DNA of 64,000 bases from Streptomyces rimosus (GTDB lineage: Bacteria; Actinomycetota; Actinomycetes; Streptomycetales; Streptomycetaceae): the NCBI RefSeq assembly GCF_008704655.1, contig NZ_CP023688.1:8004501-8068500 (forward strand). Reading direction: 5' to 3'. A model generated the notes under the pieces. It was not told the DNA's origin, made no database searches, and was given only the letters and a program-made list of their open reading frames with translations. Positions within the stretch are counted from its first letter, which is position 1, and the number at the start of each line of letters is the position of its first letter. This document shows positions 9,538 to 36,063 of this stretch, one piece after another. The position numbers and the translations under genes are program-made.

Positions 9538-9691
9538 GGGGCACCTCGTGGGGGGAGAGAACGGGCCGATACAACGCATCGTCGGACCGTAGGAACGTAC
9601 GAGCAAGGGAGCAAGCAGCCGCGCCCGCCGGTTCCCGGATTTCAGCCGTCCGTACCTGGCGGCGGTGATCACCGCATGCTACGAAAGGGCC

Positions 9692-11251: not shown

Positions 11252-11376
11252 CCGGCCGGCGGCCACTTCCGTACACGGCCGTACGCACCAGGCGGCCCCG
11301 CCGTCCCCGGCGCATTCGCTGACGCGGCATCAGAAAATCTCTTCCCTCGTACGGCGCCCTGCGGCATCCTGCGCCC

Positions 11377-12480
11377 ATGCAGACGGAGCTGAGCAACCGG
11401 CTGGGAGTCGAGCACGCCGTCTTCGGGTTCACCCCGTTCCCCGCGGTCGCCGCCGCGATCAGCCGGGCCGGCGGCTTCGGCGTGCTCGGCGCGGTCCGCT
11501 ACGCGGCGGCCGACGAACTGGCCCGCGACCTGGAATGGATCGACCGGCACACCGACGGCGCGCCGTACGGGCTGGACGTGGTGATGCCCGCCAAGAAGGT
11601 CGAAGGCGTCACGGAGGCCGACATCGAGGCGATGATCCCGGAAGGGCACCGCCGGTTCGTCGCCGAGACCCTCGCCGCGCACCGGGTCCCCGAACTGCCG
11701 CCCGGCGAGGCGTCCGGCTGGCGCATCACGGGCTGGCTGGAGCAGGTCGCCCGCGCGCAGCTCGACGTGGCCTTCGACTTCCCGGTCAGACTGCTGGCCA
11801 ACGCGCTCGGCTCACCGCCCGCCGACGTCGTCGAGCGCGCCCACGCGCACGGCATCCTCGTCGCCGCGCTCGCGGGCAGCCCCCGGCACGCCCGGCACCA
11901 CAAGGACGCCGGGATCGACATCGTCGTCGCGCAGGGGTACGAGGCCGGCGGCCACACCGGGGAGATCGCCACCATGGTGCTCACCCCCGAGGTCGTCCGC
12001 GCCGTGGACCCGCTGCCGGTCCTCGCGGCCGGCGGCATCGGCACCGGCGAACAGATCGCCGCCGGGCTGGCCCTGGGCGCCCAGGGTGTCTGGCTCGGCT
12101 CCGTCTGGCTGACCACCGAGGAGGCCGGTCTGCACTCCAGGCGCCTGACCGAGAAGCTGCTCGCGGCGGGCCCCGGCGACACCGTCCGCTCCCGCGCGCT
12201 GACCGGCAAGCCCGCCCGCCAGCTCCGTACGGCCTGGACGGACGCCTGGGACGACCCGTCGGGGCCCGACCCGCTGCCCATGCCGCTGCAAGGGCTGCTG
12301 GTCGCCGAGGCCGTCTCCCGTATCCAGAAGTACGAGGTCGAGCCGCTGCTCGGCACGCCGGTCGGCCAGATCGTCGGGCAGATGAACGCGGAACGCAGTG
12401 TGCGGGCGGTCTTCGACGACCTCACCCGCGGCTTCGAGCGGGCCGTCGACCGCATCAACCGCATCGCCGGACGCGGCTGA
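11377..12480 (+). CDS. Nitronate monooxygenase (2-nitropropane dioxygenase family)
   Basis: 367 residues with the FMN TIM-barrel pattern: IDIVVAQGYEAGGHTGE with the catalytic His of class I enzymes, then PVLAAGGIGTGEQIAAGLALGAQGVWLGS, the phosphate-binding strands. These flavoenzymes oxidise alkyl nitronates such as propionate-3-nitronate; in actinobacteria many sit next to acyl-CoA genes and may act on other acyl substrates. The CoA-ligase gene begins 16 bp downstream, so the two form an operon. The start ATG has no strong ribosome site visible. Confidence 0.87.
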   Translation: MQTELSNRLGVEHAVFGFTPFPAVAAAISRAGGFGVLGAVRYAAADELARDLEWIDRHTDGAPYGLDVVMPAKKVEGVTEADIEAMIPEGHRRFVAETLAAHRVPELPPGEASGWRITGWLEQVARAQLDVAFDFPVRLLANALGSPPADVVERAHAHGILVAALAGSPRHARHHKDAGIDIVVAQGYEAGGHTGEIATMVLTPEVVRAVDPLPVLAAGGIGTGEQIAAGLALGAQGVWLGSVWLTTEEAGLHSRRLTEKLLAAGPGDTVRSRALTGKPARQLRTAWTDAWDDPSGPDPLPMPLQGLLVAEAVSRIQKYEVEPLLGTPVGQIVGQMNAERSVRAVFDDLTRGFERAVDRINRIAGRG

Positions 12481-12496
12481 GCCGAGGAGGACACAC

Positions 12497-14062
12497 ATGT
12501 CGGCATCCATGGCGTCACCATCCCCGAACGGCTTCTGGGCCCAGGCCGCGGCCGATCCGGGACGTACGGTCCTGATCGCCCCGGACGGCGAGGAGTGGAC
12601 CGCGGCCCGGCTGCACGCCGCCTGCAACCGCCTGGTGCACGGGCTGCGCGCGGCCGGACTGGAGCGCGGCGACGCCTTCGCGGTGGTGCTGCCCAACGGC
12701 GTCGAGTTCTTCACCGCCCACCTCGCCGCCACCCAGGCGGGCCTGTACCTCGTACCGGTCAACCACCACCTCGTCGGCCCGGAGATCGCCTGGATCGTCG
12801 CCGACTCGGGGGCGAAGGCGCTCATCGCGCACGAACGGTTCGGCGACGCCGCCCGCGCCGCCGCCGACGAGGCGGGGCTGCCGCCGGAACAGCGGTACGC
12901 CGTCGGCACGGTGACCGGCTTCCGGCCGTACGCGGCGCTCCTCGAAGGACAGCCGGAAACGCCGCCGGAGGACCGCACCCTCGGCTGGGTCATGAACTAC
13001 ACCTCCGGCACCACCGGACGCCCCCGCGGCATCCGCCGCCCCCTGTCCGGCCGCCCGCCCGAGGAGTCCCACCTCGGCGGCTTCCTCGGCATCTTCGGCA
13101 TCCGGCCGTTCGACGCCAACGTGCATCTGGTGTGCTCGCCGCTCTACCACACGGCCGTGCTCCAGTTCGCGGGCGCTTCCCTGCACATGGGGCACCGGGT
13201 CGTCCTGATGGACAAGTGGACGCCCGAGGAGATGCTGCGGCTGATCGACACGTACCGCTGCACCCATACGCACATGGTGCCCACCCAGTTCCACCGGCTG
13301 CTCGCCCTCCCGGAGGAGGTACGGGCACGCTACGACGTGACCTCGATGCGGCACGCCATCCACGGCGCCGCGCCCTGCCCCGACCACGTCAAGCGGGCGA
13401 TGATCGACTGGTGGGGGAGCTGCGTGGAGGAGTACTACGCGGCGAGCGAGGGCGGCGGCGCGTTCGCCACCGCCGAGGACTGGCTCAAGAAGCCCGGTAC
13501 GGTCGGCCGGGCCTGGCCGATCAGCGAACTGGCGGTCTTCGACGACGACGGCAACCGGCTGCCGCCCGGCGAACTGGGCACCGTCTACATGAAGATGACC
13601 ACCGGCGGCTTCAGCTACCACAAGGACGCGGACAAGACCCGCAGGAACCGCATCGGGGACTTCTTCACCGTCGGCGACCTCGGATACCTGGACGCGGACG
13701 GGTATCTCTTCCTCCGCGACCGCAAGATCGACATGATCATCTCGGGCGGGGTCAACATCTACCCCGCCGAGATCGAGTCCGTCCTGCTCTCCCACCCCGC
13801 CGTCGCCGACGCGGCCGCCTTCGGCATCCCGCACGACGACTGGGGCGAGCAGGTCAAGGCCGTCGTCGAGCCCGCCGACGGCTACCCGGCGGGCCCGGCC
13901 CTCGCCGACGAGCTCCTGGAGCACTGCGCCCGGCGGCTGGCGGGCTACAAGCGCCCCAGGTCCGTCGACTTCACCGCGGCCATGCCGCGCGACCCCAACG
14001 GCAAGCTCTACAAGCGGCGGCTCCGCGACCCGTACTGGGCGGGCCGGGAGCGCGCCGTGTGA
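12497..14062 (+). CDS. Acyl-CoA synthetase (AMP-forming, FadD type)
   Basis: 521 residues; ATG 12497 follows GAGGAGG by 6 bases. Adenylate-forming core motifs in order: YTSGTTGRPRG (P-loop), YAASEGGG (A5), GDLGYLDADGYLFLRDR (A7/A8 hinge), IISGGVNIYPAEIE, and the C-terminal RDPNGKLYKRRLRDPYW with the catalytic Lys. It activates a carboxylic acid to its CoA thioester; chain type cannot be read. Cotranscribed with the nitronate monooxygenase. It ends 7 bp from the convergent acylase gene, whose product could release fatty acids for it. Confidence 0.92.
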   Translation: MSASMASPSPNGFWAQAAADPGRTVLIAPDGEEWTAARLHAACNRLVHGLRAAGLERGDAFAVVLPNGVEFFTAHLAATQAGLYLVPVNHHLVGPEIAWIVADSGAKALIAHERFGDAARAAADEAGLPPEQRYAVGTVTGFRPYAALLEGQPETPPEDRTLGWVMNYTSGTTGRPRGIRRPLSGRPPEESHLGGFLGIFGIRPFDANVHLVCSPLYHTAVLQFAGASLHMGHRVVLMDKWTPEEMLRLIDTYRCTHTHMVPTQFHRLLALPEEVRARYDVTSMRHAIHGAAPCPDHVKRAMIDWWGSCVEEYYAASEGGGAFATAEDWLKKPGTVGRAWPISELAVFDDDGNRLPPGELGTVYMKMTTGGFSYHKDADKTRRNRIGDFFTVGDLGYLDADGYLFLRDRKIDMIISGGVNIYPAEIESVLLSHPAVADAAAFGIPHDDWGEQVKAVVEPADGYPAGPALADELLEHCARRLAGYKRPRSVDFTAAMPRDPNGKLYKRRLRDPYWAGRERAV

Positions 14063-14069
14063 GGTCTAC

Positions 14070-16484
14070 CTACCGCTCGCGTACGTGCTCCACCCGCAGC
14101 TGCGGCGAGGCGAGCACATCGCGCTCGCAGAAGCGGGACCGGATCATCCGGCCCGCCGAGTACAGCTCGGTCTGGTCGCTGTAGTGCGGCGAGCGCGGGT
14201 TGGAGGACTGCGAGTACGTCAGCAGCGTACGGGCGTTCACCGGGCAGCCGTCGTCCGCGAAGCTCACCGCCTGGATGTAGCTGGAGCCGTGCCGCACCTC
14301 CGTGTAGCCACCGCTCGCCGGGTTCCACCGGCCCACGGTCATGTTCCAGACGCCCAGCCCGTCCACGCCCCCGCTGACCGGGATGCGCTTGCCGTTGCGT
14401 ATGACGAACTGGTGCTCGCCGAGCGGCGCGGCGAGCGGGATGCGCGCGGCGCGCAGCTCGGACACGGCGTCGGCGAGCGCGGTCGCGAGGCCAGGGACGG
14501 CGGTGTTCAGGGCGCGCGGGGTCCGCACCGGATCATTCGGGTCGAAAGGCGTCTTCCAAAGATCGGTCTGCGGCACCGTGGCGGTCAGCCGGCGCCAGAA
14601 CCGGTCGAAGAGGAGTGCGCCCTTGCTGTCCGTCCGTACCGTACGGTTCCAGGCGGCGATCACCCGGCACGCCTCCGAGACGTCCATGGCCTTGCCGTCG
14701 CTCCCGGTCGCCGTACCGCCGGGGAGCGCGGCGCAGGCCCGCGCGGTGTCGGCGGCGGCCAGGTCACCGGCGGGCACCCGGTTGGTGAACTGCTGGCGCT
14801 GGAGATCGGCCGGGGTCAGATCGCCCCGGTCCGCCAGGGCGGACACGTCCTCGACGGCGCCGCGCGTCCGCAGGGAGCGCGGGGTGCCGATGTCGCCGAG
14901 AACGCGCGGGTAGCCCGTCAGCGGCCGGTCCGCGTTGGCCAGCCAGGCGCTGTCGTTGGAATTCTCCGCATACGGGGCGTCCGTGAGCGTGGGCATCGCG
15001 GACGGGCCGAAGATGCCCGGCTGCACGGCGTCCCGGTCGCGGCCCGGCGCGCAGCCGGAGCGCGCGCCGTCCAGTACGGCCAGGCCGGGCGCCGGGTACA
15101 GCAGCCGCCCCAGGCCCGTGGAACAGCGCTCCACGAGGTCGTCGGTGATGCGCGGCACCACCTGCGACTGGGTGTAGAGGGTGCGGCCGGCCGAGTCGGC
15201 GGCGACGGTGTTCACCCAGGGCAGGCCCTGCGTCCGGCGCAGCACCCGCCGGACGTCCGCCACGTTCCGGGCCTTGCCCAGGCCCAGGAAGGTGTCGGAC
15301 ATCCGCAGCTGCGCCGCGTTGGGGTCACCCAGCGCGTACGCCGTACGGCTCGTCCACGCCAGGTCGAGGCCGCCGTACTCGGTGACGACCGGGCCGTAGC
15401 GCGTCCACCACTGCGTACGGACCACATCCGGACCGTCCTTGACCGGCACCGTCACGGTCCGGCGCGTCATCCGCTCCGGCTTGCCGTCCACCAGGTACGC
15501 GGTCGGGTCCGCCGGGTCCAGGGTGAGCTGGTGGAAGTTCATGGGCACACCGGTGGAGACCGTGTGGCTCCAGGCGATGCGGGCGTTGTGGCCGATGTTG
15601 GGGGTGGGGGAGCCGAGGATCAGTCCGCCCGCGACGTCGAGTTCGCCGGGGATGGTCACCTGCGCCTGCCAGAAGCGGCGGCCGCCGGACCACGGGTAGT
15701 GCGGATTGCCCAGGAGCAGGCCGCGGCCGTTGGCGGTGGTGTCACCGCGGAAGGCGACGGCGTTGGAGCCCAGGCCCCCGTCGTCGCGTGCGAGGTGGGA
15801 GCGGACGGACGCCACGGACTTCCGCGGGCTCTGCGGCGCGGTGGGGGCGGGTGGGGCGCCGGCCGTGGGCGGGTGGGCCGCGACGAGGCTGTCCACCACA
15901 TCGGCCTGCCCCGCGGTGATCACGAGGGCGTACGCGTTGGCCGCCACGTCGAGCGCGGTGACCGGCTTGACCCACTCCTTGCCCGCACAGGCCGGATCGG
16001 TGATCTTCCGCTGCGCCAGCCAGGCGTTGTACCCGGCCGCCCAGCCGCGCATCAGCTCCTTCACCTCGTCACCCGGCCCGGCCGGAGCGGGCTGCCGCAG
16101 CAGCTTCTCGACGGTGCGGGTCTGGCGTATGCCCTTGAAGAAGAGGTCACTGGCGAGGTTGGTGCTCGCGGAGGAGTGGGTGCCGTCGGGATGTCCCGCG
16201 GCGCCGAAGTACCGGGAGCGTTCGCCGCGCAGGGTGACGAAGCCGTCGGCGAGCGTGCAGACCTGATCGGCGGCCTGCGCCCAGCCCACGCCGAAACCCA
16301 GGTCGGGGTAGTCGTCGGCGATTATGTGGGGAATGCCGTACTCGGTGTAGCGGATGTCGGCCGAGAGTCCGCCGCCCGACGGGCGGGACGCCTTGGCCGC
16401 GGCCGCGTCCGGGGCGGGCGACAGCCCCGCCGCGGTCAGCAGCACCATCCCGGCCGCGGCGAGCTTTCTGAAACGGTCGCGCAT
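14070..16484 (-). CDS. Secreted penicillin-acylase-family Ntn hydrolase (AHL/lipopeptide acylase type)
   Basis: 804 residues; ATG 16484 has AAGGAGG nearby, and a long open frame upstream is antisense to the next gene. A signal peptide (RKLAAAGMVLLTAAGLSPAPDAAAA) precedes the alpha chain (IRYTEYGIPHI). GLGSNAVAF contains the Ser that becomes the N-terminal nucleophile of the beta chain after self-cleavage; TANGRGLLLGNPHYPW and FDPNDPVRTPRALN are typical of the group. Length and layout match actinomycete enzymes such as AhlM of Streptomyces and aculeacin A acylase, which deacylate acyl-homoserine lactones, penicillins or cyclic lipopeptides. It lies between two CoA-ligase genes. Substrate is inferred from family only. 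Confidence 0.9.
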   Translation of the reverse strand: MRDRFRKLAAAGMVLLTAAGLSPAPDAAAAKASRPSGGGLSADIRYTEYGIPHIIADDYPDLGFGVGWAQAADQVCTLADGFVTLRGERSRYFGAAGHPDGTHSSASTNLASDLFFKGIRQTRTVEKLLRQPAPAGPGDEVKELMRGWAAGYNAWLAQRKITDPACAGKEWVKPVTALDVAANAYALVITAGQADVVDSLVAAHPPTAGAPPAPTAPQSPRKSVASVRSHLARDDGGLGSNAVAFRGDTTANGRGLLLGNPHYPWSGGRRFWQAQVTIPGELDVAGGLILGSPTPNIGHNARIAWSHTVSTGVPMNFHQLTLDPADPTAYLVDGKPERMTRRTVTVPVKDGPDVVRTQWWTRYGPVVTEYGGLDLAWTSRTAYALGDPNAAQLRMSDTFLGLGKARNVADVRRVLRRTQGLPWVNTVAADSAGRTLYTQSQVVPRITDDLVERCSTGLGRLLYPAPGLAVLDGARSGCAPGRDRDAVQPGIFGPSAMPTLTDAPYAENSNDSAWLANADRPLTGYPRVLGDIGTPRSLRTRGAVEDVSALADRGDLTPADLQRQQFTNRVPAGDLAAADTARACAALPGGTATGSDGKAMDVSEACRVIAAWNRTVRTDSKGALLFDRFWRRLTATVPQTDLWKTPFDPNDPVRTPRALNTAVPGLATALADAVSELRAARIPLAAPLGEHQFVIRNGKRIPVSGGVDGLGVWNMTVGRWNPASGGYTEVRHGSSYIQAVSFADDGCPVNARTLLTYSQSSNPRSPHYSDQTELYSAGRMIRSRFCERDVLASPQLRVEHVRER

Positions 16485-16697
16485 ATCGGGTGATCCTCCT
16501 TGCAGTCCTGAAGGTGCGGTACACGAACACGTGCCAACTCGCGGGGACGGGGAGGAGGTTGAGCGGTGAGCGGAAGGCTGAGCATAACCGTGACCGGTCG
16601 CGACGGGTCCGGCGCCGCGGTCTTTGGCGCGAACGCCCCGTGCGCCCGGCCGCCCCGCTCTCTTGACCGGGCCCGGGGCCGGGCACAGGATCACGCC

Positions 16698-18299
16698 ATG
16701 ACGGGAGCCACGGCGGGAGTACGGACGAACACGGTCGACGGGGTCCTGCGGCGCAGCGCGCACCGGACGCCCGACCGCACGGCGGTGCGCTACGGCGACC
16801 GGTCCTGGACCTACCGCGAACTGGACGACGCGGTGACGGCCGCCATGTGCGCCCTGCTGGTGAACGGGGCGGAGCCAGGGGACCGGGTCGCCGCGTACGG
16901 CCACAATTCCGACGCGTACGTGATCGGCTTCCTGGCCTGCGCCCGCGCCGGGCTGGTGCACGTACCCGTCAACCACCACCTCACCGGCGACGGACTGCGC
17001 TACATCATCGAGCAGTCGGGCAGCACCCTCGTCCTCACCGACCCGGCGCTGGAGCACCGGCTGCCGCCCGGGGTCCGGACGATGCCGCTGCGGGACGCGG
17101 CGGGATCGCTGGTGGAGCGGGCGGAGGAAGGGCGGGGGGTGAAATCGGCGGTCCTCCGGACAGGTGATGAGGGTGGGTCGGGGGAGGCGCACGAAGCCGG
17201 TGACCCGGATGGCGCGTACGGCTCGGGCTCCGACGACCTGGTGCAGCTCCTCTACACCTCCGGCACGACCGGGCTGCCCAAGGGCGCGATGATGACGCAC
17301 GGCGCGCTGGTCCACGCGTACACCTCGGCCATCGTCGCCCTCGACCTGAAGGCGACCGACCGGCCCGTACACAGCCTGCCGCTCTACCACTCGGCGCAAC
17401 TGCACGTGTTCCTGATGCCCTACCTCGCCGTGGGCGCCGAGAACGTCATCCTCGACGCGCCCGACCCGGACCGGGTCTTCGACCTGGTCGAAGCGGGGCG
17501 GGCGGACAGCCTGTTCGCGCCGCCCACCGTGTGGATCGCCCTCTCCCGGCACCCCGGCTTCGCCACCCGCGACCTCCGCGGCCTCCGCAAGGCGTACTAC
17601 GGCGCGTCCATCATGCCGGTGCCCGTCCTGGAACGGCTGCGCGCCCGGTTGCCCGGCCTCGCCTTCTACAACTGCTTCGGACAGAGCGAGATCGGGCCGC
17701 TGGCCACCGTCCTGGGGCCGGACGAACACGAGGAGCGGATGGACTCGTGCGGCCGGCCGGTGCTGTTCGTGGAGGCGCGGGTGGTGGACCCGGGAGGCAC
17801 GGAGGTGCCCGACGGCGAGCGCGGGGAGATCGTCTACCGCTCGCCCCAACTGTGCACGGGCTACTGGGACAAGCCGGACGAGACCGCGGCGGCGTTCCGG
17901 GACGGCTGGTTCCGCTCCGGGGACCTGGCCGTGCGCGACGCGGCGGGCTACTTCACCATCGTCGACCGCGTCAAGGACGTCATCAACTCGGGCGGTGTGC
18001 TGGTGGCCCCGCGACAGGTGGAGGACGCGCTGTACGCACATCCGGGGGTCGCGGAGGTGGCGGTGATCGGCCTGCCGGACGAGCGCTGGATCGAGGCGGT
18101 GACGGCCGTCGTCGTACCGCGCGCGGGCACGGCGGCGCCGGACGAGGCGGAGCTGATCGCGGCGGTGCGGGAGCGGCTGGCCGGGTTCCAGGTGCCCAAG
18201 CGGGTGCTGTTCGCCGAGGCGTTGCCGCGCAATGCCAGCGGCAAGATCCTCAAGCGGGAACTCCGGGAACGGTACGGGTCCGAGTCCGGCCGGGAGTGA
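16698..18299 (+). CDS. Acyl-CoA synthetase (AMP-forming, FadD type)
   Basis: 533 residues from ATG 16698. Motifs: LLYTSGTTGLPKGAMMTH (P-loop), YNCFGQSEIGP (A5), GYWDKPDETAAAFRDGWFRSGD, IVDRVKDVINSGG, and PRNASGKILKREL with the catalytic Lys. Residues about 130-175 form a variable, Gly/Glu-rich insert. The set fits medium/long-chain acyl-CoA ligases. It is divergent from the secreted acylase with 213 bp between starts, so the two may share control and work in sequence: acyl release outside, activation inside. Ribosome site (CAGGA) is modest. Confidence 0.92.
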   Translation: MTGATAGVRTNTVDGVLRRSAHRTPDRTAVRYGDRSWTYRELDDAVTAAMCALLVNGAEPGDRVAAYGHNSDAYVIGFLACARAGLVHVPVNHHLTGDGLRYIIEQSGSTLVLTDPALEHRLPPGVRTMPLRDAAGSLVERAEEGRGVKSAVLRTGDEGGSGEAHEAGDPDGAYGSGSDDLVQLLYTSGTTGLPKGAMMTHGALVHAYTSAIVALDLKATDRPVHSLPLYHSAQLHVFLMPYLAVGAENVILDAPDPDRVFDLVEAGRADSLFAPPTVWIALSRHPGFATRDLRGLRKAYYGASIMPVPVLERLRARLPGLAFYNCFGQSEIGPLATVLGPDEHEERMDSCGRPVLFVEARVVDPGGTEVPDGERGEIVYRSPQLCTGYWDKPDETAAAFRDGWFRSGDLAVRDAAGYFTIVDRVKDVINSGGVLVAPRQVEDALYAHPGVAEVAVIGLPDERWIEAVTAVVVPRAGTAAPDEAELIAAVRERLAGFQVPKRVLFAEALPRNASGKILKRELRERYGSESGRE

Positions 18300-26600: not shown

Positions 26601-27218
26601 GTGGCACGCACCATACGTACCTCTCTGCGCCGGCTGCTCACCACGGGCGCCGCCGTCACCGCTCTTCTCACCGCCGCCCCGACGGCCGGCGCGGCCCCGG
26701 CGGCACCCCGCGAGACGCACGCCCTGCGCCCCCTCGCCGACCTGTCCGCCCAACGCCTCGCCACCGCCGACCTGGTGGCCGCGGCGAAGTGGGGGACCGG
26801 CAGCCCGGTCGACGATCCGGTGCGCGAGCGGCAGGTGCTGGAGGCCGTGGCGCGGCAGGCCGCGGAGCTGGGCACCGATCCGCGGCGGACCGCGCGGATC
26901 TTCCGGGACCAGATCGAGGCGAACAAGACCGTGCAGCGCGCGCTGCACCGCCGCTGGACCGCCGACCCGGCGCAGGCACCCACCCGGCGCCCGGATCTCG
27001 GTGAGGTGCGCAAGGAGATCAACCGCGTCAACGACGCTCTGGTACGGGCGATCGCCGCCTCCGGCGCGGCCCGTACATCGCCGCGCTGCCTCCGTTCCCT
27101 GGTGCACGACACCGCTGACGTACGTCACGAGCGGGGCCTCGACACCCTGCACACGGTGGCGCTGGCCCGTTCCGTACGGTCGGTGTGCGGGGCGGACGAG
27201 GCGCGTCCGGCATCATGA
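26601..27218 (+). CDS. Secreted chorismate mutase (AroQ-gamma type)
   Basis: 205 residues, GTG start with AGGAG 9 bases upstream. A signal peptide (RTSLRRLLTTGAAVTALLTAAPTAGAA) is followed by an all-helical domain: LADLSAQRLATADLVAAAKW, then RTARIFRDQIEANKTVQ, whose Gln/Glu/Lys pattern is that of exported chorismate mutases such as the M. tuberculosis enzyme. Two C-terminal Cys (RCLRS, VCGA) could form the disulfide known in that protein. Chorismate to prephenate conversion outside the cytoplasm has no settled physiological role. Its stop overlaps by 6 bp that of the convergent P450 gene. Confidence 0.85.
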   Translation: MARTIRTSLRRLLTTGAAVTALLTAAPTAGAAPAAPRETHALRPLADLSAQRLATADLVAAAKWGTGSPVDDPVRERQVLEAVARQAAELGTDPRRTARIFRDQIEANKTVQRALHRRWTADPAQAPTRRPDLGEVRKEINRVNDALVRAIAASGAARTSPRCLRSLVHDTADVRHERGLDTLHTVALARSVRSVCGADEARPAS

Positions 27219-28472
27219 ACCGCCGGGCGGGCCGAGGACGACCGGCAGCTCCCGCAGGCCGTTGAAGACCATGGACGGGCGGCGGAGCGGACGCTGCCCG
27301 GGGTCGTCCAGGGCGAGGCCGGGGAAGCGGTCGAACAGCGCGGGGAGGGCGACCGCCGCCTCCAGGCGGGCGAGCGGCGCACCGAGGCAGTGGTGGATGC
27401 CGTGCCCGAAGGCCAGATGGCGGGTGGGCGGCCGGGTGACGTCGAAGCGGTCGGCCCCGGGCCCGTGCTGCCGCGGGTCGCGGCCGAAGGCGGCGTACGA
27501 CAGCATCACCGGATCGCCCGCGCGAATGGTCCGGCCGGCCAGGTCCACGTCGCACAGCGCGTAGCGGAACGGGAAGTTGGCGACCGGCGGGTCCCAGCGC
27601 AGCGTCTCCTCGACCACCGCGCTCCAGGGCACCTGCCCGCCGCGTACGAGAGTGAGCTGACCGGGGTGGGTCAGCAGCGCGTACACCGCGTTGACCAGCA
27701 GGTTCACCGTGGTCTCATGGCCCGCGACAATCATCAGCAACAGCGTGTCGACGAGTTCGCTCCCGCTGAGGCCGTGGCCGGGGGCCACCAGCGCGCTCGT
27801 CAGGTCGTCCCCGGGGTCCTCGCGCTTGGCGCGGAGCAGATCGGCGAGCGCGGCCCGCAGCTCGCGGTGGGTGGCCAGGGCATCGGCCGGGCCCGCCGGG
27901 GCGGCGAACAGGGCCTGGCACAGCGACTGCAGCCGGGGACGGCGGTCGTCGGACACGCCGAACAGCTCGCAGATGACCCGTATCGGCAGCGGGTGGGCGA
28001 AGCGGGCCCGCAGCTCGACGGGGCCCGCCGGCCCCTCGGCGGCGAGGCCGTCCAGCAGCTCCCCGGCCAGCTCCTCGACGCGCGGCCGCAGCCCCGCCAC
28101 GCGGCGCGCGGTGAACGCGCGGGCCAGCGGCGCGCGCAGCCGGGTGTGGTCGCCCGCCGTCGCGGTGGTCATGTTCGCGACGGTCAGCAGCGGCGCCAGC
28201 GGCCAGGAGCGCGGGACCTCGCCGCCGCGCCAGGCGCGCCAGGCCCCGATGTCCTTGACGAAGCGGCCGTCCGCCAGCACCGCCTTCCCGGCCTGATGCC
28301 GGGTCACCAGCCAGGCCGTCACCCCACCCGGCAGCAGGACGGGCACCACAGGGCCCGCGGCGCACAGCGGGTCCGGGCGGGAGCGGGGATCGCGCGCTTC
28401 CGGGTCGAGGCGCACACACGAGCCGTACTCACCGGAAGGGCCGCCGCCGGGCTCCGCGCCATCGATGTCCAT
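27213..28472 (-). CDS. Cytochrome P450
   Basis: 419 residues, the length of bacterial class I P450s. I-helix oxygen-binding motif IVAGHETT, K-helix EETLR, and heme loop FGHGIHHCLGAPLAR with the axial Cys; FPFRYALCDVDLAGRTIRAGD is the usual beta region. The N-terminus includes an Asp/Glu/Pro-rich lead. The family (CYP105/107-like) cannot be assigned by eye. No ferredoxin gene is adjacent. It is divergent from the 31-codon gene at 28651, with a 178-bp region containing a 9-bp inverted repeat that may control both. Confidence 0.92.
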   Translation of the reverse strand: MDIDGAEPGGGPSGEYGSCVRLDPEARDPRSRPDPLCAAGPVVPVLLPGGVTAWLVTRHQAGKAVLADGRFVKDIGAWRAWRGGEVPRSWPLAPLLTVANMTTATAGDHTRLRAPLARAFTARRVAGLRPRVEELAGELLDGLAAEGPAGPVELRARFAHPLPIRVICELFGVSDDRRPRLQSLCQALFAAPAGPADALATHRELRAALADLLRAKREDPGDDLTSALVAPGHGLSGSELVDTLLLMIVAGHETTVNLLVNAVYALLTHPGQLTLVRGGQVPWSAVVEETLRWDPPVANFPFRYALCDVDLAGRTIRAGDPVMLSYAAFGRDPRQHGPGADRFDVTRPPTRHLAFGHGIHHCLGAPLARLEAAVALPALFDRFPGLALDDPGQRPLRRPSMVFNGLRELPVVLGPPGGS

Positions 28473-28818: not shown

Positions 28819-30453
28819 TTACGGGGTGCCCGTGCCGGACGCCACCGCCTTCGCCCACCGGTAGTCCGCCTTGCCGCTCGGGGAGCGCCGGATGCGCTCG
28901 GTGAAGACGACGGACCGGGGGACCTTGTAGCCGGCCAGCCGCGCCCGGCAGTGCTCCTGCACCGCCTCAAGGCCCAGCGGCCCGGCACCCTCCCGCAGCT
29001 GTACGACGGCGGCGACCCGGCTGCCCCAGCGCGCGTCCGGCACCCCGGCCACCAGCGCGTCGTAGACATCAGGATGCGCCTTCAGCGCCTGCTCGACCTC
29101 CTCCGGATAGACCTTCTCGCCGCCGGAGTTGATGCACTGCGAGCCGCGCCCGAGGACGGTGACGATACCCGCCTCGTCGACGGTGGCCATGTCACCGAGC
29201 AGCACCCACCGCTCGCCGTCCGCCTCGAAGAACGTCTCGGCGGTCTTGCGCGGGTCGTTGTAGTAGCCGAGCGGTACATGCCCGCGCAGCGCGAGCCGCC
29301 CGACCTCGCCGGCCGCCACCGGGGCGTGCACGGGGGACGCCGGGTCGACCACCGCCGTGTGCGCGTTGACGCGTAACCGGAACCCCTTGTCCGGCCCCGA
29401 GTCCTCGGTGGCGGTGCCGTTGAAGCCCGACTCCGACGAGCCGAAGTTGTTGAGCAGCAGGGCGCCCGGCACCAGCGCGCTGAACTGGGCCCGTACGGTT
29501 TCCGACAGGATCGCCCCGGAGCTGCTGACGCTGAACAGCGAGGAGCAGTCGGTGCCCTTCAGCGGGCCCGCCAGCGCGTCCGCGAGGGGGCGCAGCATCG
29601 CGTCGCCGACCAGCGAGACGCTGGTCACCTTCTCGCGCTCGATGGTGCGCAGCACCTCCTCCGGCACGTACTTGCGGTGCAGGACGACCTTCTGGCCGAA
29701 GTGGAAGGCGATGAACGCGGTGAGGGTGGAGGTCCCGTGCATCAGCGGGGGAGTGGGGAAGAAGACCAGGCCCTCGCCGCCCGCGGCGACGCGTTCGGCC
29801 AGTTCCTCCGGGCGCCGTACCGGCTCGCCGGTGGGCGCGCCGCCGCCCATGCCGGAGAAGAAGATGTCCTCGTGCCGCCACATCACGCCTTTCGGCATGC
29901 CGGTGGTGCCGCCGGTGTAGATGACGAGCCGGTCGCCGCCGGAGCGCGGCGCGAAGTCCCGGTCGGGCGAACCGGACGCCTCGGCCTGCTCGAACGGCAC
30001 CGGCGCGACGGCGGGTTCCGGCGCGCCCGGCGGCGGGGTGCCCACCCGTACGAGATGGCGCAGCCGCTCCGTACGCGGCAGGACGGCGGCGATCCGGCCG
30101 GTGAACTCCGCGTCGAAGACCAGCGCGACCAGATCGGCGTCCCGGTAGAGGTAGGCCAACTCGTCTTCTACGTAGCGGTAGTTGACGTTCACGGGGACGG
30201 CGCGGATCTTCAGGCAGGCGTAGAGGGCCTGGAGGTATTCGACGCCGTTGTAGAGGTGCAGGCCGACGTGCGAGCCCGGGGTGACCCCGTGATCGCGCAG
30301 GTGGTGGGCGAGCCGGTTGGCCGCGCGGTCCAGCTCCGCGTACGTCAGGCGCCGCTCCGCGCCCGTACCCGGATGATCCAGGTGGACCAGCGCCTCCCGG
30401 CCGGGAACCGTGTCGACGACCGACTCGAACAGATCGGCGAGGTTGTATTCCAC
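28819..30453 (-). CDS. Acyl-CoA synthetase of the FadD19/FadD17 style
   Basis: 544 residues, GTG 30453 with GGAGGAGA directly upstream. Motifs: IYTGGTTGMPKGVMWRHED (P-loop), NNFGSSESG (A5), LLGDMATVDEAGIVTVLGRG, CINSGGEKVYPEEVE, and SPSGKADYRWAK with the catalytic Lys. The MWRHEDIFF stretch and the N-terminus YNLADLFESVVD are typical of actinobacterial ligases that activate branched or steroid side-chain acids. It is divergent from the crotonase/DUF35/thiolase operon and shares with it a 218-bp promoter region containing a KstR-type box, so the five genes form one catabolic unit. The true substrate is inferred, not shown. Confidence 0.9.
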   Translation of the reverse strand: MEYNLADLFESVVDTVPGREALVHLDHPGTGAERRLTYAELDRAANRLAHHLRDHGVTPGSHVGLHLYNGVEYLQALYACLKIRAVPVNVNYRYVEDELAYLYRDADLVALVFDAEFTGRIAAVLPRTERLRHLVRVGTPPPGAPEPAVAPVPFEQAEASGSPDRDFAPRSGGDRLVIYTGGTTGMPKGVMWRHEDIFFSGMGGGAPTGEPVRRPEELAERVAAGGEGLVFFPTPPLMHGTSTLTAFIAFHFGQKVVLHRKYVPEEVLRTIEREKVTSVSLVGDAMLRPLADALAGPLKGTDCSSLFSVSSSGAILSETVRAQFSALVPGALLLNNFGSSESGFNGTATEDSGPDKGFRLRVNAHTAVVDPASPVHAPVAAGEVGRLALRGHVPLGYYNDPRKTAETFFEADGERWVLLGDMATVDEAGIVTVLGRGSQCINSGGEKVYPEEVEQALKAHPDVYDALVAGVPDARWGSRVAAVVQLREGAGPLGLEAVQEHCRARLAGYKVPRSVVFTERIRRSPSGKADYRWAKAVASGTGTP

Positions 30454-30539: not shown

Positions 30540-30554
30540 CTGACTGCCTGTCAG
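30540..30554. promoter_or_regulatory. Second palindrome in the ligase/crotonase promoter
   Basis: CTGAC-tgcct-GTCAG, 5-bp arms, 29 bp to the left of the KstR-type box. Resembles half-sites of TetR-type fatty-acid regulators in general form; low information. Confidence 0.4.
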
Positions 30555-30582: not shown

Positions 30583-30596
30583 TGCAACCTGTTCTA
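30583..30596. promoter_or_regulatory. KstR-type operator (TNNAACNNGTTNNA) in the divergent catabolic promoter
   Basis: TGCAACCTGTTCTA matches all eight fixed positions of the KstR motif, 76 bp before the crotonase start and 130 bp before the CoA-ligase start. In Mycobacterium this motif marks genes for sterol side-chain activation and beta-oxidation, the same types of gene that flank it here. Confidence 0.7.
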
Positions 30597-30671: not shown

Positions 30672-31472
30672 ATGGGCGGGACCGAACATCTGACGGTGAC
30701 ACGCGACGGCGCGACCCTGGTGCTCACCCTCAACCGGCCGGAGGCGAAGAACGCGCTGTCGCTGCCGATGCTGGTGGGCCTGTACGACGGCTGGACCGAG
30801 GCCGACGAGGACGACGGCGTGCGCTCCATCGTGCTCACCGGCGCGGGCGGCGCCTTCTGCTCCGGCATGGACCTCAAGGCGCTGGCCGGCCGCGGCATGG
30901 ACGGCGAACCGTACCGCGAGCGCCTGGCGGCCGACCCGGACCTCCACTGGAAGGCCATGCTGCGCCACCACCGCCCGCGCAAGCCCGTGATCGCCGCCGT
31001 CGAGGGCGCCTGCGTCGCCGGCGGTACGGAGATCCTCCAGGGCACCGACATCCGGGTGGCCGGGCAGAGCGCCACGTTCGGGCTGTTCGAGGTGCGGCGC
31101 GGACTGTTCCCCATCGGCGGCTCGACGGTCCGCCTCCCGCGCCAGATCCCGCGCACCCACGCCCTGGAGATGCTGCTCACCGGGCGCCCGTACACCGCCG
31201 AGGAGGCCGCCTGTATCGGCCTGATCGGCCATGTCGTACCGGACGGTGACGCGCTCGGCACGGCGCTGGAGATCGCCGAACGGATCAACGCGTGCGGCCC
31301 GCTTGCCGTCGAGGCGGTCAAGGCGTCCGTCTACGAGACCGCCGGGATGACCGAGGAGGACGGGCTGAAGGCCGAACTGGAACGCGGCTGGCCCATCTTC
31401 GGCACCGCCGACGCCAAGGAGGGCTCCCGGGCCTTCGCCGAGAAGCGCCCGCCGGTCTTCCGGCGCGCCTGA
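30672..31472 (+). CDS. Enoyl-CoA hydratase/isomerase (crotonase family)
   Basis: 266 residues, ATG behind GGGAGGACGC. LNRPEAKNALS and GAGGAFCSGMDL give the CoA-binding/oxyanion region; KPVIAAVEGACVAGGTEI the second oxyanion strand; the catalytic Glu positions of hydratases fall in EILQGTDIRVA and FEVRRGLFP. It hydrates the double bond made by an acyl-CoA dehydrogenase. First gene of a four-gene operon; DUF35 follows at 53 bp, then the two thiolase-fold genes overlap by translational coupling. Confidence 0.9.
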   Translation: MGGTEHLTVTRDGATLVLTLNRPEAKNALSLPMLVGLYDGWTEADEDDGVRSIVLTGAGGAFCSGMDLKALAGRGMDGEPYRERLAADPDLHWKAMLRHHRPRKPVIAAVEGACVAGGTEILQGTDIRVAGQSATFGLFEVRRGLFPIGGSTVRLPRQIPRTHALEMLLTGRPYTAEEAACIGLIGHVVPDGDALGTALEIAERINACGPLAVEAVKASVYETAGMTEEDGLKAELERGWPIFGTADAKEGSRAFAEKRPPVFRRA

Positions 31473-31525
31473 GCCCCGCACTTGATCGCCGCCCCGCCCG
31501 ACCCGTACGGAAGCGAGGAGCCCGA

Positions 31526-32608
31526 ATGCCACCGATCTCCGGTACTCCAGAGGCGCTGTCGGCCCCGCTCGTCGTGGAGTTCCCCTTCACCCGGTCGCTC
31601 GGGCCCGTACAGAGCGCCTTCCTCACCGGGCTGCGCGAGCGGACCGTCCTCGGGGTGCGGACCGCGGACGGGCGGGTACTGGTGCCGCCCGTCGAGTACG
31701 ACCCGGCCACCGCCGAGGAGATACGCGACCTCGTCGAGGTCGGCACCACCGGCACCGTCACCACCTGGGCCTGGAACCCGGCCCCGCGCCGCGGCCAGCC
31801 GCTGGACACACCGTTCGCCTGGATACTGGTGCGCCTCGACGGCGCGGACACGGCGCTGCTGCACGCCCTGGACGCGGCCGGTCCGGACGCGGTGCACACC
31901 GGGATGCGGGTGCGCGTGCGGTGGGCGGGGGAGCGCACGGGGGCGATCACGGACATCGCGTGCTTCGAGCCGTACGAGGGCGGTGCGGATGGGGAGGCCG
32001 TGCCGCGCAGCGGCGAGTCCACGGAATCGGCCCCGCGCAGGAGGGCGTCCGCGGAACCGGTCCCGCACAGGAGCGAGTCCGCGGAACCGGCCCCGGAAAG
32101 CGGCGGGTCTGTGGAACCGGTCCCGCACAGCGGCGAGTTCGCCGACCCCGTCACCGGTATCACCGCCCCTGCCCGCCTCGACTACACCTACACGCCCGGC
32201 CGCGCCCAGTCCCGCTATCTCGCCGCCCTCGCCGAGCGCCGGACGGTCGGCGAGCGCTGCCCGTCCTGCCGCAAGGTGTACGTACCGCCCCGCGGCGCCT
32301 GCCCCACCTGCGGCGTCGCCACCCGCGACCAGGTGGAGGTCGGCCCCAGGGGGACGGTCACCACCTTCTGCATCGTCAACATCAAGGCGAAGAACCTCGA
32401 CATCGAGGTGCCGTACGTGTACGCGCACATCGCCCTGGACGGCGCGGACCTGGCCCTGCACGCGCGCATCGGCGGCATCCCGTACGACCGGGTACGGATG
32501 GGCCTGCGCGTCGAGCCGGTATGGCGCGACGGCAGCCGCTACCCGGACCACTACCGGCCCACCGGCGAACCCGACGCCGACTACGACAGCTACAAGGAGC
32601 TGATCTGA
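31526..32608 (+). CDS. Double DUF35 (OB-fold) protein with one zinc ribbon
   Basis: 360 residues from ATG 31526 (GCGAGGAG upstream). Two DUF35 OB-fold halves: residues about 20-150 lack ribbon cysteines; residues about 215-345 have the rubredoxin-like ribbon CPSCRKVYVPPRGACPTC followed by an OB fold (GPRGTVTTFCIVN). The halves are joined by a linker of 10-residue repeats (161-210). DUF35 proteins pair with thiolase-fold partners; in ChsH2-Ltp2 the DUF35 part binds the aldolase that shortens sterol side chains. Its TGATG overlap with the following thiolase-like gene supports such a complex here. Confidence 0.88.
   Translation: MPPISGTPEALSAPLVVEFPFTRSLGPVQSAFLTGLRERTVLGVRTADGRVLVPPVEYDPATAEEIRDLVEVGTTGTVTTWAWNPAPRRGQPLDTPFAWILVRLDGADTALLHALDAAGPDAVHTGMRVRVRWAGERTGAITDIACFEPYEGGADGEAVPRSGESTESAPRRRASAEPVPHRSESAEPAPESGGSVEPVPHSGEFADPVTGITAPARLDYTYTPGRAQSRYLAALAERRTVGERCPSCRKVYVPPRGACPTCGVATRDQVEVGPRGTVTTFCIVNIKAKNLDIEVPYVYAHIALDGADLALHARIGGIPYDRVRMGLRVEPVWRDGSRYPDHYRPTGEPDADYDSYKELI
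32006..32155 (+). repeat. 30-bp in-frame repeats in the DUF35 linker
   Basis: Four clear units and a fifth decayed one, 30 bp period, encoding RSGESTESAP, RRRASAEPVP, HRSESAEPAP, ESGGSVEPVP, HSGEFADPVT. In frame with the gene, so copy number can change without breaking it. Confidence 0.8.
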
Positions 32609-33708
32609 TGTCCGCGACCCCCGATCCCGCCGGGACGCCGCCGGTCCCGGCCGCACCGCCCGCGCGCGAGGTCGCGGTCGTCGCCTTCGCGCAGAGCCGC
32701 CACACCCGCGACTCCGCCGAGGTCTCCGAGGCCGAACTGCTGCTGCCGGTCCTCCAGGACGTACTCGGCCAGGCCGGACTGCGGGCCGGGGAGATCGACT
32801 TCACCTGCTCCGGATCGTCGGACTACCTCGCCGGGCGGGCCTTCTCCTTCACCATGGCACTGGACAGCGTCGGCGCCTGGCCGCCCATCGCCGAGTCGCA
32901 CGTCGAGATGGACGGCGCCTGGGCGCTGTACGAGGCATGGGTCAAGCTGCTGACCGGCGACGCCGATACCGCGCTCGTGTACGCGTACGGCAAGTCCTCG
33001 TCCGGCGAGGTGCGCGACGTGCTCACCCGCCAGCTCGACCCGTACTACGTCGCACCCCTGTGGCCCGACCCGGTCGCCCTGGCCGCCCTCCAGGCCCAGG
33101 CCCTCATCGACGCGGGCGCCACGGACGAAGCGGCGCTGGCCGGGGTCGCGGCACGCAGCCGCGCCGACGCGGCGGCCAACCCGTACGCCCAGCTCACGGG
33201 CTCCGTGCCGCACGGCCCGTACGCCGTCCGGCCACTGCACACCGGCGACTGCCCGCCCGTCACCGACGGTGCCGCCGCCGTGATCCTCGCGGCCGGGGAC
33301 ACCGCGCGGCGGCTGTGCGACCGGCCCGCCTGGATCCGCGGCATGGACCACCGCACCGAAGCCCACGGACTCGGCGTACGGGACCTCACCGACTCACCGT
33401 CCGCCCGGCTGGCCGCGGAACGCGCCGGAGTCTTCGAACGGCCCGTGGACACCGCCGAACTGCACGCGCCCTTCACCTCCCAGGAGGTGATCCTCCGCCG
33501 GGCGCTGCGGCTGGACGACGGAGTACGGATCAACCCGTCCGGCGGGGCCCTCGCCGCCAACCCCATGATGGCCACCGGACTGCTCCGCATCGGCGAGGCC
33601 GCGCAGCGCATCCGGCGCGGCGACTCGCGACGGGCGCTGGCCCACGCCACCTCGGGGCCCTGCCTCCAGCAGAACCTGGTCGCCGTACTGGAAGGGGACC
33701 CGCGATGA
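32608..33708 (+). CDS. Thiolase-fold protein (lipid-transfer/aldolase type)
   Basis: 366 residues; its ATG overlaps the DUF35 stop (TGATG). Thiolase fold is shown by the opening VAVVAFAQSRH, CSGSSDYLAGRA, GDCPPVTDGAAAVIL and RINPSGGALAANPMMATGL. At the position of the thiolase nucleophile (usually a Cys in an ACASG-like turn) the text is ESHVEMDGAWALYEAW, without Cys, as in SCP2-thiolase-like retro-aldolases such as Ltp2. A role in C-C cleavage of a side-chain beta-hydroxyacyl-CoA together with DUF35 is inferred. Downstream gene overlaps by ATGA. Confidence 0.85.
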   Translation: MSATPDPAGTPPVPAAPPAREVAVVAFAQSRHTRDSAEVSEAELLLPVLQDVLGQAGLRAGEIDFTCSGSSDYLAGRAFSFTMALDSVGAWPPIAESHVEMDGAWALYEAWVKLLTGDADTALVYAYGKSSSGEVRDVLTRQLDPYYVAPLWPDPVALAALQAQALIDAGATDEAALAGVAARSRADAAANPYAQLTGSVPHGPYAVRPLHTGDCPPVTDGAAAVILAAGDTARRLCDRPAWIRGMDHRTEAHGLGVRDLTDSPSARLAAERAGVFERPVDTAELHAPFTSQEVILRRALRLDDGVRINPSGGALAANPMMATGLLRIGEAAQRIRRGDSRRALAHATSGPCLQQNLVAVLEGDPR

Positions 33709-34904
33709 GCAGGACCGGAGGAACACCGAGGGCCGCGACCGCCAAAGAACCCGTCGCCGTCGTCGGCATCGGCCAGACCCGGCACGTCGCGGCACGCCGC
33801 GACGTCTCCATGGCCGGACTCGTCCGCGAGGCCGCCCACCGGGCTCTGCGAGACGCCGAGTTGGCATGGCAGGACATTGACGCGGTGGTCATCGGCAAGG
33901 CCCCCGACTTCTTCGAGGGCGTGATGATGCCCGAGCTGTACCTCGCCGACGCGCTCGGCGCGGTCGGCAAACCGCTCCTGCGGGTGCACACCGCCGGCTC
34001 GGTCGGCGGCTCCACCGCCCTGGTCGCGGCCGACCTCGTCGCCGCCCGCGTGCACCGCACCGTACTGACCCTCGCCTTCGAGAAGCAGTCCGAGTCCAAC
34101 GCGATGTGGGGACTGTCGCTGCCGGTGCCGTTCCAGCAGCCGCTGCTGGCCGGGGCGGGCGGCTTCTTCGCCCCGCACGTACGCGCCTACATACGCCGTA
34201 CGGGCGCGCCCGCCACGATCGGCTCCCTCGTCGCGTACAAGGACCGCCGCAACGCGCTGAAGAACCCCTACGCCCACCTCCACGAACACGACATCACCCT
34301 GGAGAAGGTCCAGGCGTCCCCGATGCTCTGGGACCCCGTCCGCTACTCCGAGACCTGCCCGTCCTCCGACGGCGCCTGCGCCATGGTGCTCACCGACCGC
34401 GCGGGCGCGCGGCGGGCGCCCCGCCCCGCCGCATGGGTGCACGGCGGCGCGATGCGCAGCGAACCCACCCTCTTCGCGGGCAAGGACTTCGTCTCCCCGC
34501 AGGCGGGCAAGGACTGCGCGGCGGCGGTCTACCGACAGGCCGGGATCACCGATCCGCGCCGGGAGATCGACGCGGTCGAGATGTACGTACCGTTCAGCTG
34601 GTACGAGCCGATGTGGCTGGAGAACCTGGGCTTCGCCGCCCCTGGCGAGGGCTGGAAACTCACCGAATCCGGCGCAACAGAACTCGACGGCGACCTCCCC
34701 GTCAACCCCTCCGGCGGCGTACTCTCCGCCAACCCCATCGGCGCCTCCGGCATGATCCGCTTCGCGGAGGCGGCACTTCAGGTCCGCGGGGAGGCGGGGG
34801 AACGCCAGGTCCCCGGCGCGCGGCGGGCGCTGGGGCACGCGTACGGGGGCGGCTCGCAGTTCTTCTCGATGTGGGTGGTGGGTGGCGAACCGCCTACTGG
34901 TTGA
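33705..34904 (+). CDS. Thiolase-fold protein (acetyl-CoA acetyltransferase/Ltp type)
   Basis: 399 residues, start in an ATGA overlap with the previous stop. EPVAVVGIGQTRHVAARRDVSM and DIDAVVIGKAPDFFEGV are typical Ltp-type beginnings; LPVNPSGGVLSANPIGASGMIRF is the thiolase His/Asn loop, and GHAYGGGSQFFSMWVV replaces the usual Cys-containing CGGG end. The nucleophile turn reads HTAGSVGGSTAL, with Ser where classical thiolases have Cys. Two adjacent, different thiolase-like chains plus DUF35 suggest a hetero-oligomer. Last gene of the operon; the IS remnant begins shortly after. Confidence 0.87.
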   Translation: MSRTGGTPRAATAKEPVAVVGIGQTRHVAARRDVSMAGLVREAAHRALRDAELAWQDIDAVVIGKAPDFFEGVMMPELYLADALGAVGKPLLRVHTAGSVGGSTALVAADLVAARVHRTVLTLAFEKQSESNAMWGLSLPVPFQQPLLAGAGGFFAPHVRAYIRRTGAPATIGSLVAYKDRRNALKNPYAHLHEHDITLEKVQASPMLWDPVRYSETCPSSDGACAMVLTDRAGARRAPRPAAWVHGGAMRSEPTLFAGKDFVSPQAGKDCAAAVYRQAGITDPRREIDAVEMYVPFSWYEPMWLENLGFAAPGEGWKLTESGATELDGDLPVNPSGGVLSANPIGASGMIRFAEAALQVRGEAGERQVPGARRALGHAYGGGSQFFSMWVVGGEPPTG

Positions 34905-34925: not shown

Positions 34926-35517
34926 GTGCTCACGATGGCTCGGGTGCTAGGGGGTATCCGGCAGGTCGATGACGGATCCAGGTGTGGATCGTTCCGGTCA
35001 TGGTGGGGTGGGGCAGGCGGTGGAAGAGTCACCGCCGAGTCGTCAACGGAATCCTCTTCCGGCTGCGCGGCGGGATTCCGTGGCGAGACTTGCCGACCCG
35101 GTTCGGGAATTGGAAGACCGTGTACGAGAGGCATCGGCGGTGGTCAGCAGACGGCACTTGGGAACGCATGCTCCGGGCCGTGCTGGCGGAGGGCCGCATT
35201 GACTGGTCGATGGTCAGTGTGGACTCCACCGTCTGCCGAGCCCACCAGCACGCCGCCGGCGCCCGCAGGAAGGCGCCGCGGAAACCACGTACACGCATCC
35301 GGCCTGCGCAGCACCGCCCCGCAGGCGGCCGTCCGCGGACCTGCCCCGACCATCTGAGCGGCGACAAGGCGTACAGCTCCCGCCGCAACCGTCGCTACCT
35401 GCGGCGTCGGCACAGATCAAAAACTCCCGGGCCATGGACACTCGTTACGACAAGAGGGCCTACGTCTTCCACGGCACCGTCACGGTCGCCGCACTTCGCC
35501 GCTGGCTCCGCCCGTGA
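34926..35517 (+). mobile_element. IS5-family transposase remnant (broken)
   Basis: Pieces of one transposase appear in two frames. From about 35030: HRRVVNGILFRLRGGIPWRDLP, then DGTWERML and DWSMVSVDSTVCRAHQH (first catalytic Asp); a deletion follows, then SGDKAYSSRRNR (second Asp, near 35360), then a frameshift to MDTRYDKRAYVFHGTVTVAA, the C-terminus, ending at 35517. The segment with the catalytic Glu is missing, so the element cannot move by itself. Terminal inverted repeats and target duplication could not be identified. It marks the border of the accessory stretch to 39.2 kb. Confidence 0.8.
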
Positions 35518-35529
35518 CCCGTTGGGCTC

Positions 35530-36063
35530 TCACCGGCCGGTGCGGCGCCGGTAGTAGGCGTAGGTCACCAGCCCCAGCAGCGGCCCCCAGGCGAGCAACG
35601 GCAGGTAGCACGCCGTCAGGACGGCTTCTTCGGTCACCGTGTGGCCGGGAGGAAACCCGCCGAAGAGGATGCTGAGGAAGAAGTAGTACACGACGCCCAT
35701 CGAGGCGAGGGCACCCAGCATGGCCGGGACCACTGCGGCGAGCGGGCGCACCGGGCGTCCGCCCAGCAACGGGATCCATCGCGGCACCACCTCCCCCCAC
35801 GGCTGGATCAACCCCAAGGTGAGCAATCCGAGCCCCTCAGAGACCGCGAAGAGCACGATCAGATACAGATCAAGCCCAGCACCCTGCTCCCGCGCCTCGG
35901 CCGTGCCGAAGCCCGGCACGGCCAGCATCACGCCCATCCGCCACAGCCCCGAGGGCAGAATGGTGAACGGCACCGTGTGCGCCGCGATCCGCGCCCAGCG
36001 CGGCACGTCCAATGACGGGGATCCGAGAGCGGAAGCTGGTGCGAAATTCCCTTGCTCAGTCAC
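35530..36063 (-). CDS. Membrane protein, function unknown
   Basis: About 177 residues from GTG 36063 (an in-frame GTG at 36117 gives 18 more; neither has a well-spaced ribosome site). Four membrane segments: AAHTVPFTILPSGLWRMGVML, LYLIVLFAVSEGLGLLTLGL, LAAVVPAMLGALASMGVVYYF, and AVLTACYLPLLAWGPLLGLV, with a basic C-terminus YYRRRTGR. Proteins of this general form are common and uncharacterised in Streptomyces. It begins only 13 bp from the IS remnant's end and converges with it. Confidence 0.7.
   Translation of the reverse strand: MTEQGNFAPASALGSPSLDVPRWARIAAHTVPFTILPSGLWRMGVMLAVPGFGTAEAREQGAGLDLYLIVLFAVSEGLGLLTLGLIQPWGEVVPRWIPLLGGRPVRPLAAVVPAMLGALASMGVVYYFFLSILFGGFPPGHTVTEEAVLTACYLPLLAWGPLLGLVTYAYYRRRTGR

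Follow-up and report, generated by a model that had tools for sequence, protein, structure and literature searches.

The sequence TGCAACCTGTTCTA, located at positions 30583 to 30596 on the plus strand of the 64-kb stretch of Streptomyces rimosus DNA analysed here (the window), is probably an operator for a KstR-type TetR repressor, and it appears to belong to a side-chain regulon of at least five promoters. In the mechanism that we propose from sequence comparisons, a KstR homologue would bind TNNAACNNGTTNNA over the -10 element or just next to it, and would thereby repress five or more promoters. The first would be that of a glycosyltransferase operon next to kstR, the second that of a gene for a FadE34-like dehydrogenase plus a thiolase gene, the third that of a MaoC hydratase-ADH-SDR gene set, and the fourth that of a ChsE4-like dehydrogenase (box 4472). 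The fifth promoter would serve the echA19-DUF35-ltp4-ltp3 operon, possibly together with the divergent fadD19 gene (box 30583). The regulon predicted in this way is larger than the preliminary description of this DNA had suggested, has no recognised ring genes here, and contains an extra operator.

As first described, TGCAACCTGTTCTA fits the consensus TNNAACNNGTTNNA at all eight fixed positions. The window contains exactly two matches to this consensus, one at 4472 and the other at 30583, and 100 shuffles of the window gave a mean of 0.05 matches and never two. The box at 30583 is indeed located in the shared promoter of two divergent genes, with 129 bp separating it from the start of the ligase gene (30453, minus strand) and 75 bp from that of the crotonase gene (30672, plus strand), which is thus the nearer. 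On the crotonase side it stands behind a TTGAA-type -35-like element.

A genome-wide motif scan had been suggested as a check. Across the 9.36-Mb chromosome the pattern occurs in 33 places, compared with 10 for a reversed control pattern, and this roughly threefold excess means that many single matches must be due to chance and that the pattern alone is weak evidence. Since the genome-wide excess is small, the case for an operator is carried by conservation rather than by the motif alone, and conservation was examined at five promoters among the 33 matches. A further strong-looking KstR-type match, TGCAACACGTTTTA, is present near genome position 1067180 (stretch L018).

For each gene, the first 30 loci read were the best-scoring ones and are therefore a biased sample. 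Low-scoring stretches were added for ChsE4 (20), kstR (20), MaoC (20), FadE34 (19) and fadD19/echA19 (10), with the exclusion of a few entries that were paralogue-like or already covered by larger stretches. The promoters read in this manner represent 50 of 103 for ChsE4, 50 kstR loci of 141 genomes, 50 of 124 for MaoC, 49 of 53 genomes for FadE34 and 40 of 103 for echA19. The ChsE4 box is strictly kept in 30 of the 30 best matches and in 18 of the 20 low-end ones, wherein the two misses retain seven and six of the eight positions. Similarly, the FadE34 box is strict in 30 of 30 best and 19 of 19 low-end promoters, and the box between kstR and the glycosyltransferase gene is found in 29 of 30 and 20 of 20 (49 of 50 loci). 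Five control patterns occurred in zero to one locus per set of 30 and in none of 79 added stretches, and none of the five was found in the 30 echA19 and 30 ChsE4 loci. One might propose that both boxes in the window arose by chance in GC-rich DNA, as the 33 matches against 10 in the control would allow. However, the strict conservation of the ChsE4 box and the absence of the control patterns from the same loci make this extremely improbable, and we reject it on the conservation of the boxes in relatives.

The box in the fadD19/echA19 promoter is the weakest of the boxes. Over the 40 promoters read it retains all eight positions in 12, seven in 22 and six in 6. The corresponding numbers are 9, 19 and 2 for the 30 closest relatives, and 3, 3 and 4 for the 10 divergent genomes, two of which have lost any recognisable site from this promoter. 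In all 22 promoters with seven positions, the one that is lost is the last A. The preliminary description had named an absence of the boxes from orthologous promoters as the outcome that would count against it. Instead, both are kept: the first strictly in 48 of 50 promoters, and the second with at least seven of eight positions in 34 of 40.

The MaoC box is kept in 29 of 30 best promoters and in 8 of 20 low-end promoters (37 of 50), and its presence follows that of an echA19-like gene. It occurs in 35 of 37 genomes that carry such a gene versus 2 of 13 that do not (Fisher 1.5e-7, wherein related genomes are not independent). Among the 20 low-end genomes alone, the box is kept in 7 of 8 with an echA19-like gene and in 1 of 12 without. 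Thus, the operator TNNAACNNGTTNNA expected of a KstR regulon is found in the promoters concerned, and it is weaker at fadD19/echA19 and at MaoC in genomes that lack the cluster.

The genes flanking the box at 30583 resemble those for degradation of the sterol side chain, as had been claimed. On the minus strand there is a FadD19-like acyl-CoA ligase (28819 to 30453; NF005863, 727 bits against a cut-off of 543), which is found in 13 of 13 relatives that were picked for having the cluster. The plus strand carries four genes, the first of which encodes an EchA19-like enoyl-CoA hydratase (30672 to 31472; NF005864, 414 bits, cut-off 316) present in 103 of 150 genomes. This protein scores 372 bits with the EchA19 equivalog model NF051848, which is below the curated cut-off of 400. 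It is followed by a DUF35/ChsH2-like OB-fold protein (31520 to 32608) in which PF01796 (OB fold) is matched twice and PF12172 (zinc ribbon) once, and whose best PDB match is ChsH2 (6ok1_B, E 9e-10). Next are two thiolase-fold proteins that we presume to be Ltp4 and Ltp3, names that also follow from family and gene order: a Ltp4-like lipid-transfer/thiolase-fold protein (32608 to 33708; NF005924, 560 bits, cut-off 419) and a Ltp3-like protein that is a candidate aldolase subunit (33705 to 34904; NF006180, 715 bits, cut-off 514). The fadD19, echA19, DUF35, ltp4 and ltp3 families are found together here and in all 13 of the relatives chosen for possessing the cluster. The P450 gene next to the ligase (27213 to 28472) is present in only 1 of these 13 relatives, and was rejected as a member of the unit. 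Directly behind the last thiolase gene, a short transposase-like reading frame was noticed by eye (34982 to 35554).

The other KstR-type box in the window, TGGAACACGTTCTA (4472 to 4485, plus strand), precedes a gene for a ChsE4/FadE26-like acyl-CoA dehydrogenase (4597 to 5811, plus strand) that is represented in 103 of 150 genomes. Its best PDB match is 4x28_A (E 8e-136), followed by 6wy8_B (1e-119). We take 4x28 to be the ChsE4-ChsE5 (FadE26-FadE27) enzyme of M. tuberculosis, and Rv3504 of that organism to be fadE26. The ChsE4 enzyme of M. tuberculosis is a two-subunit complex. Nevertheless, an additional acyl-CoA dehydrogenase gene was not noticed beside the gene at 4597 to 5811. Between the two boxes there are genes for several acyl-CoA ligases and for a protein of the nitronate monooxygenase type. 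When low-identity cross-hits are excluded, the genes from 9665 to 18299 that are kept among 13 relatives are those for a FAD oxidoreductase (8 relatives), the nitronate monooxygenase-type protein (11), a FadD4-like ligase (11) and a further ligase (7), and none of these conserved genes has a KstR box of its own. Genes for the C and D rings were also considered for this interval, and no recognised C/D-ring set was found among ten window proteins compared.

The two loci are almost always inherited together. Among 150 genomes there are 103 with an echA19-like gene and 103 with a ChsE4-like gene, such that 102 have both, 46 have neither and one each has only one of the two. The two genes share a contig in 84 genomes, at a median separation of 30 kb; they are no more than 60 kb apart in 67 of these, and the largest distance is 620 kb. 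The conserved boxes, this co-inheritance in 102 of 150 genomes and the presence of a KstR homologue all support the proposal that one regulon joins both loci.

The KstR homologue is encoded at genome positions 6592879 to 6593514, which is 1.4 Mb away, and it is the one protein of this genome that matches PF17925 (83 bits). A match to this family is present in 141 of 150 genomes, with 140 over the cut-off. The five best PDB matches of the homologue have E-values from 2e-38 to 4e-35, and three of them are named KstR (5cw8, 5aqc and 5ua2, about 3e-38). The top match, 3mnl, is by name a TetR-family protein (41.5% identity over 183 aligned columns), and its aligned residues are the same as those of KstR 5cw8. 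KstR2 matches only at E 9e-5. Within a helix-turn-helix stretch, 25 of 31 residues are identical. Judged by this similarity, a KstR-type protein is encoded in the genome. A comparative study that covered 31 genomes, including two from Streptomyces, traces KstR to an ancestor of mycobacteria and Rhodococcus and recognises nothing but paralogues in organisms further removed (PMC3388012), and for this reason strict orthology is not established.

A possible KstR orthologue of S. coelicolor, SCO2319, was listed with 32% identity and no conserved synteny (Kendall et al. 2007, PMC1995591), and it is probably the same gene as the homologue described here. Our literature search on SCO2319 found only that paper, whose available portions describe no regulon for this protein (PMC1995591), whereas five promoters can be provisionally assigned here. 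A search for accounts of a KstR regulon in Streptomyces found no description, and one may still exist.

A box is located between kstR and the glycosyltransferase gene at genome position 6593738, much nearer to the latter (stretch L016, box at 5739 to 5752, beside a GT4-type glycosyltransferase operon at 5807 to 7219). It is kept in 20 of 20 loci read from genomes without the echA19 cluster. Since kstR and this box persist in the absence of the cluster, KstR presumably has another role as well. A TANNNT-like hexamer begins with the final TA of the box at ChsE4, FadE34 and the glycosyltransferase gene, and this relative position suggests that KstR would cover the -10 region. A box that partly overlaps the -10 region has been described for the mycobacterial kstR promoter by Kendall et al. 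(PMC1995591).

A second conserved element is present in the fadD19/echA19 promoter. The palindrome CTGAC-TGCCT-GTCAG (30540 to 30554), which we propose to be an operator, begins 43 bp upstream of the start of the KstR-type box, and this spacing is maintained in 37 of the 40 promoters read. CTGAC-N5-GTCAG is found in all 40 with 18 different spacers and invariant arms, and the palindrome is therefore more strictly conserved than the KstR box in this promoter. It also occurs in FadE34 stretches (26 of 30 best and 16 of 19 low-end; 42 of 49) and MaoC stretches (27 of 30 and 8 of 20; 35 of 50), and it is rare at ChsE4 (1 of 30 and 0 of 20) and in ring-gene stretches (1 of 10). At kstR it was found in 1 of 30 and 6 of 20 stretches, and because one copy is located inside the kstR coding sequence in this genome (L016:5447), such occurrences may be coding. 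In the FadE34 promoter of this genome only two bases separate the palindrome from the KstR box, and some relatives (L127, for example) show a wider gap. When the two sites were searched for as a close-set pair, at least 119 stretches were found, and among the 80 matches listed, 76 are directly before a FadE34 homologue, while one of the four exceptions is an incomplete stretch. The contigs of these 80 listed matches comprise 79 labelled Streptomyces and one labelled Microtetraspora glauca (L273), which may reflect either transfer or a wrongly labelled contig.

The palindrome is also found, with one mismatch here, in the promoter of a gene for a F420-dependent LLM oxidoreductase (L016:11039-12049; TIGR03559, F420_Rv3520c family), where it is present in 10 of 10 relatives and there is no KstR box. 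Its conservation at the fadD19/echA19, FadE34 and MaoC promoters suggests that a second regulator probably acts on these genes, and its variable position relative to -10-like elements would suit a repressor. An adjacent TetR gene (6610340 to 6610900) was considered as the source of this regulator and was not supported, since a match of at least 79% to that region is present in only 4 of 12 relatives' stretches. Two of four other near-palindromes were examined and gave no lead.

These observations raise the possibility that control of the fadD19/echA19 promoter falls chiefly to the palindrome regulator, and that the KstR-like sequence is a fading remnant or mostly core promoter. None of the 40 promoters lacks the palindrome, whose spacer varies freely, while the box declines to six of eight positions in 6 of the 40. 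We nevertheless consider this explanation unlikely, because at least seven positions of the box are kept in 34 of 40, and the palindrome also accompanies strict boxes at FadE34 (49 of 49 boxes) and, in cluster-bearing genomes, at most MaoC promoters. This arrangement at FadE34 and MaoC argues for joint control by KstR and a second factor.

Perhaps the second operator is a BldD box, which would couple the regulon to development via c-di-GMP. CTGAC-N5-GTCAG fits the published BldD box TNAC-N5-GTNA exactly (PMC4151990), which is a fit of sequence only. However, this fit concerns an 8-base degenerate motif in which position 2 of each arm is free, whereas the arms here are stricter, with CTGAC and GTCAG in 40 of 40 fadD19/echA19 promoters. 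In addition, the main text of a BldD paper on S. clavuligerus does not contain the terms acyl-CoA, sterol, steroid, thiolase or enoyl (PMC13102240). Thus, we regard BldD as quite an improbable reader of this site.

The ring-degradation genes that would be included in a typical KstR regulon were not found. Profile searches, each with one family model, returned no match in this genome for KshA_C, none for the HsaC-type model at E 0.001, and none for KstD at E 1e-60, KstD having been listed only at this value or better. Full sterol degradation is therefore rejected for this organism on the basis of the searches for KshA_C, an HsaC-type protein and a close KstD, and the lack of matches to the ring genes searched for means that growth on sterols is not implied. 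KshA_C matches of any strength are found in 39 of 150 genomes, and strong matches (E below 1e-80) in only nine, all of which are among the 103 with the cluster. Strong HsaC-type and KstD-type matches are present in the same nine genomes; because the HsaC-type model clears its cut-off in 0 of 150 genomes, this label denotes strong model matches. In nine relatives, the ring-gene stretches (ten stretches, 191 kb) have no KstR box. A sterol substrate is thus not secured, given that ring genes were not found here and that the ring stretches of relatives are boxless.

It is quite conceivable, although not the reading that we favour, that the substrate is a non-sterol isoprenoid or a branched acyl compound, and that KstR senses its acyl-CoA. 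A strong KshA match is missing in 94 of 103 genomes with an echA19-like gene, and 59 of the 103 lack both a strong KshA and a KstD over its cut-off. However, 38 of 103 genomes with echA19 contain a KstD over the cut-off, compared with only 1 of 47 without (Fisher 1.4e-6), and in nine genomes it is located 7 to 14 kb from echA19. This association of KstD with the cluster is why a steroid substrate stays likely. Furthermore, work on mycobacteria and rhodococci links FadD19 and Ltp3/Ltp4 to C24-branched sterols (PMC6273163). With a sterol-like substrate, the enzymes of the predicted regulon would activate a C24-branched side chain, dehydrogenate and hydrate it, and then cleave it by retro-aldol and thiolase reactions. 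By analogy with mycobacterial KstR, a CoA thioester derived from the incoming side chain would release the repressor from its operators. Binding, repression, inducer, substrate and reaction order are all inferred, with the inducer, binding and order drawn from mycobacterial work.

KstR is the master switch of mycobacterial cholesterol catabolism. The arrangement in S. rimosus resembles the KstR (Rv3574) regulon of M. tuberculosis and M. smegmatis in its 14-bp motif, in a TetR regulator whose best matches include KstR structures, and in the location of boxes at fadD19/echA19, at the counterpart of Rv3503c/Rv3504 and beside kstR. The positive boxes described for M. tuberculosis include those between Rv3515c and Rv3516, Rv3503c and Rv3504, and Rv3573c and Rv3574 (PMC1995591). 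There are also differences. The kstR gene here is beside a glycosyltransferase gene, whereas mycobacterial kstR is divergent from fadE34; no KshA, HsaC-type protein or close KstD was found here; and a second operator is present. The LLM gene resembling Rv3520c has the palindrome and no box, in contrast to the box reported between Rv3520c and Rv3521 of M. tuberculosis, and the echA19-DUF35-ltp4-ltp3 genes form one run here, whereas M. tuberculosis has a separate box before Rv3521 (both M. tuberculosis boxes from PMC1995591). The gene families, the divergent fadD19/echA19 arrangement and the DUF35 protein with paired thiolase-fold proteins are shared with the C24 side-chain genes of Mycobacterium and Rhodococcus, although EchA19 here is under the equivalog cut-off. 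In M. smegmatis, FadD19 is required for C24-branched sterols and the loss of echA19 only slows the process (PMC6273163).

According to a 2016 survey, a steroid pathway is absent from 55 of 57 Streptomyces genomes (PMC4810484). In our sample, sterol side-chain genes are kept by roughly two thirds of the Streptomyces genomes (103 of 150), only nine of which have a strong KshA match. We tentatively suggest that, in most Streptomyces, KstR and a CTGAC-N5-GTCAG factor might jointly gate a pathway for sterol or isoprenoid side chains only, uncoupled from the rings, and that the older duty of KstR might be a glycosyltransferase-methyltransferase operon. The second operator offers a direct handle for finding a new regulator. 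If the proposed assignment is right, Streptomyces may trim plant and fungal sterols in soil while leaving or modifying the nucleus, which would bear on soil sterol turnover and on the production of steroid drug precursors.
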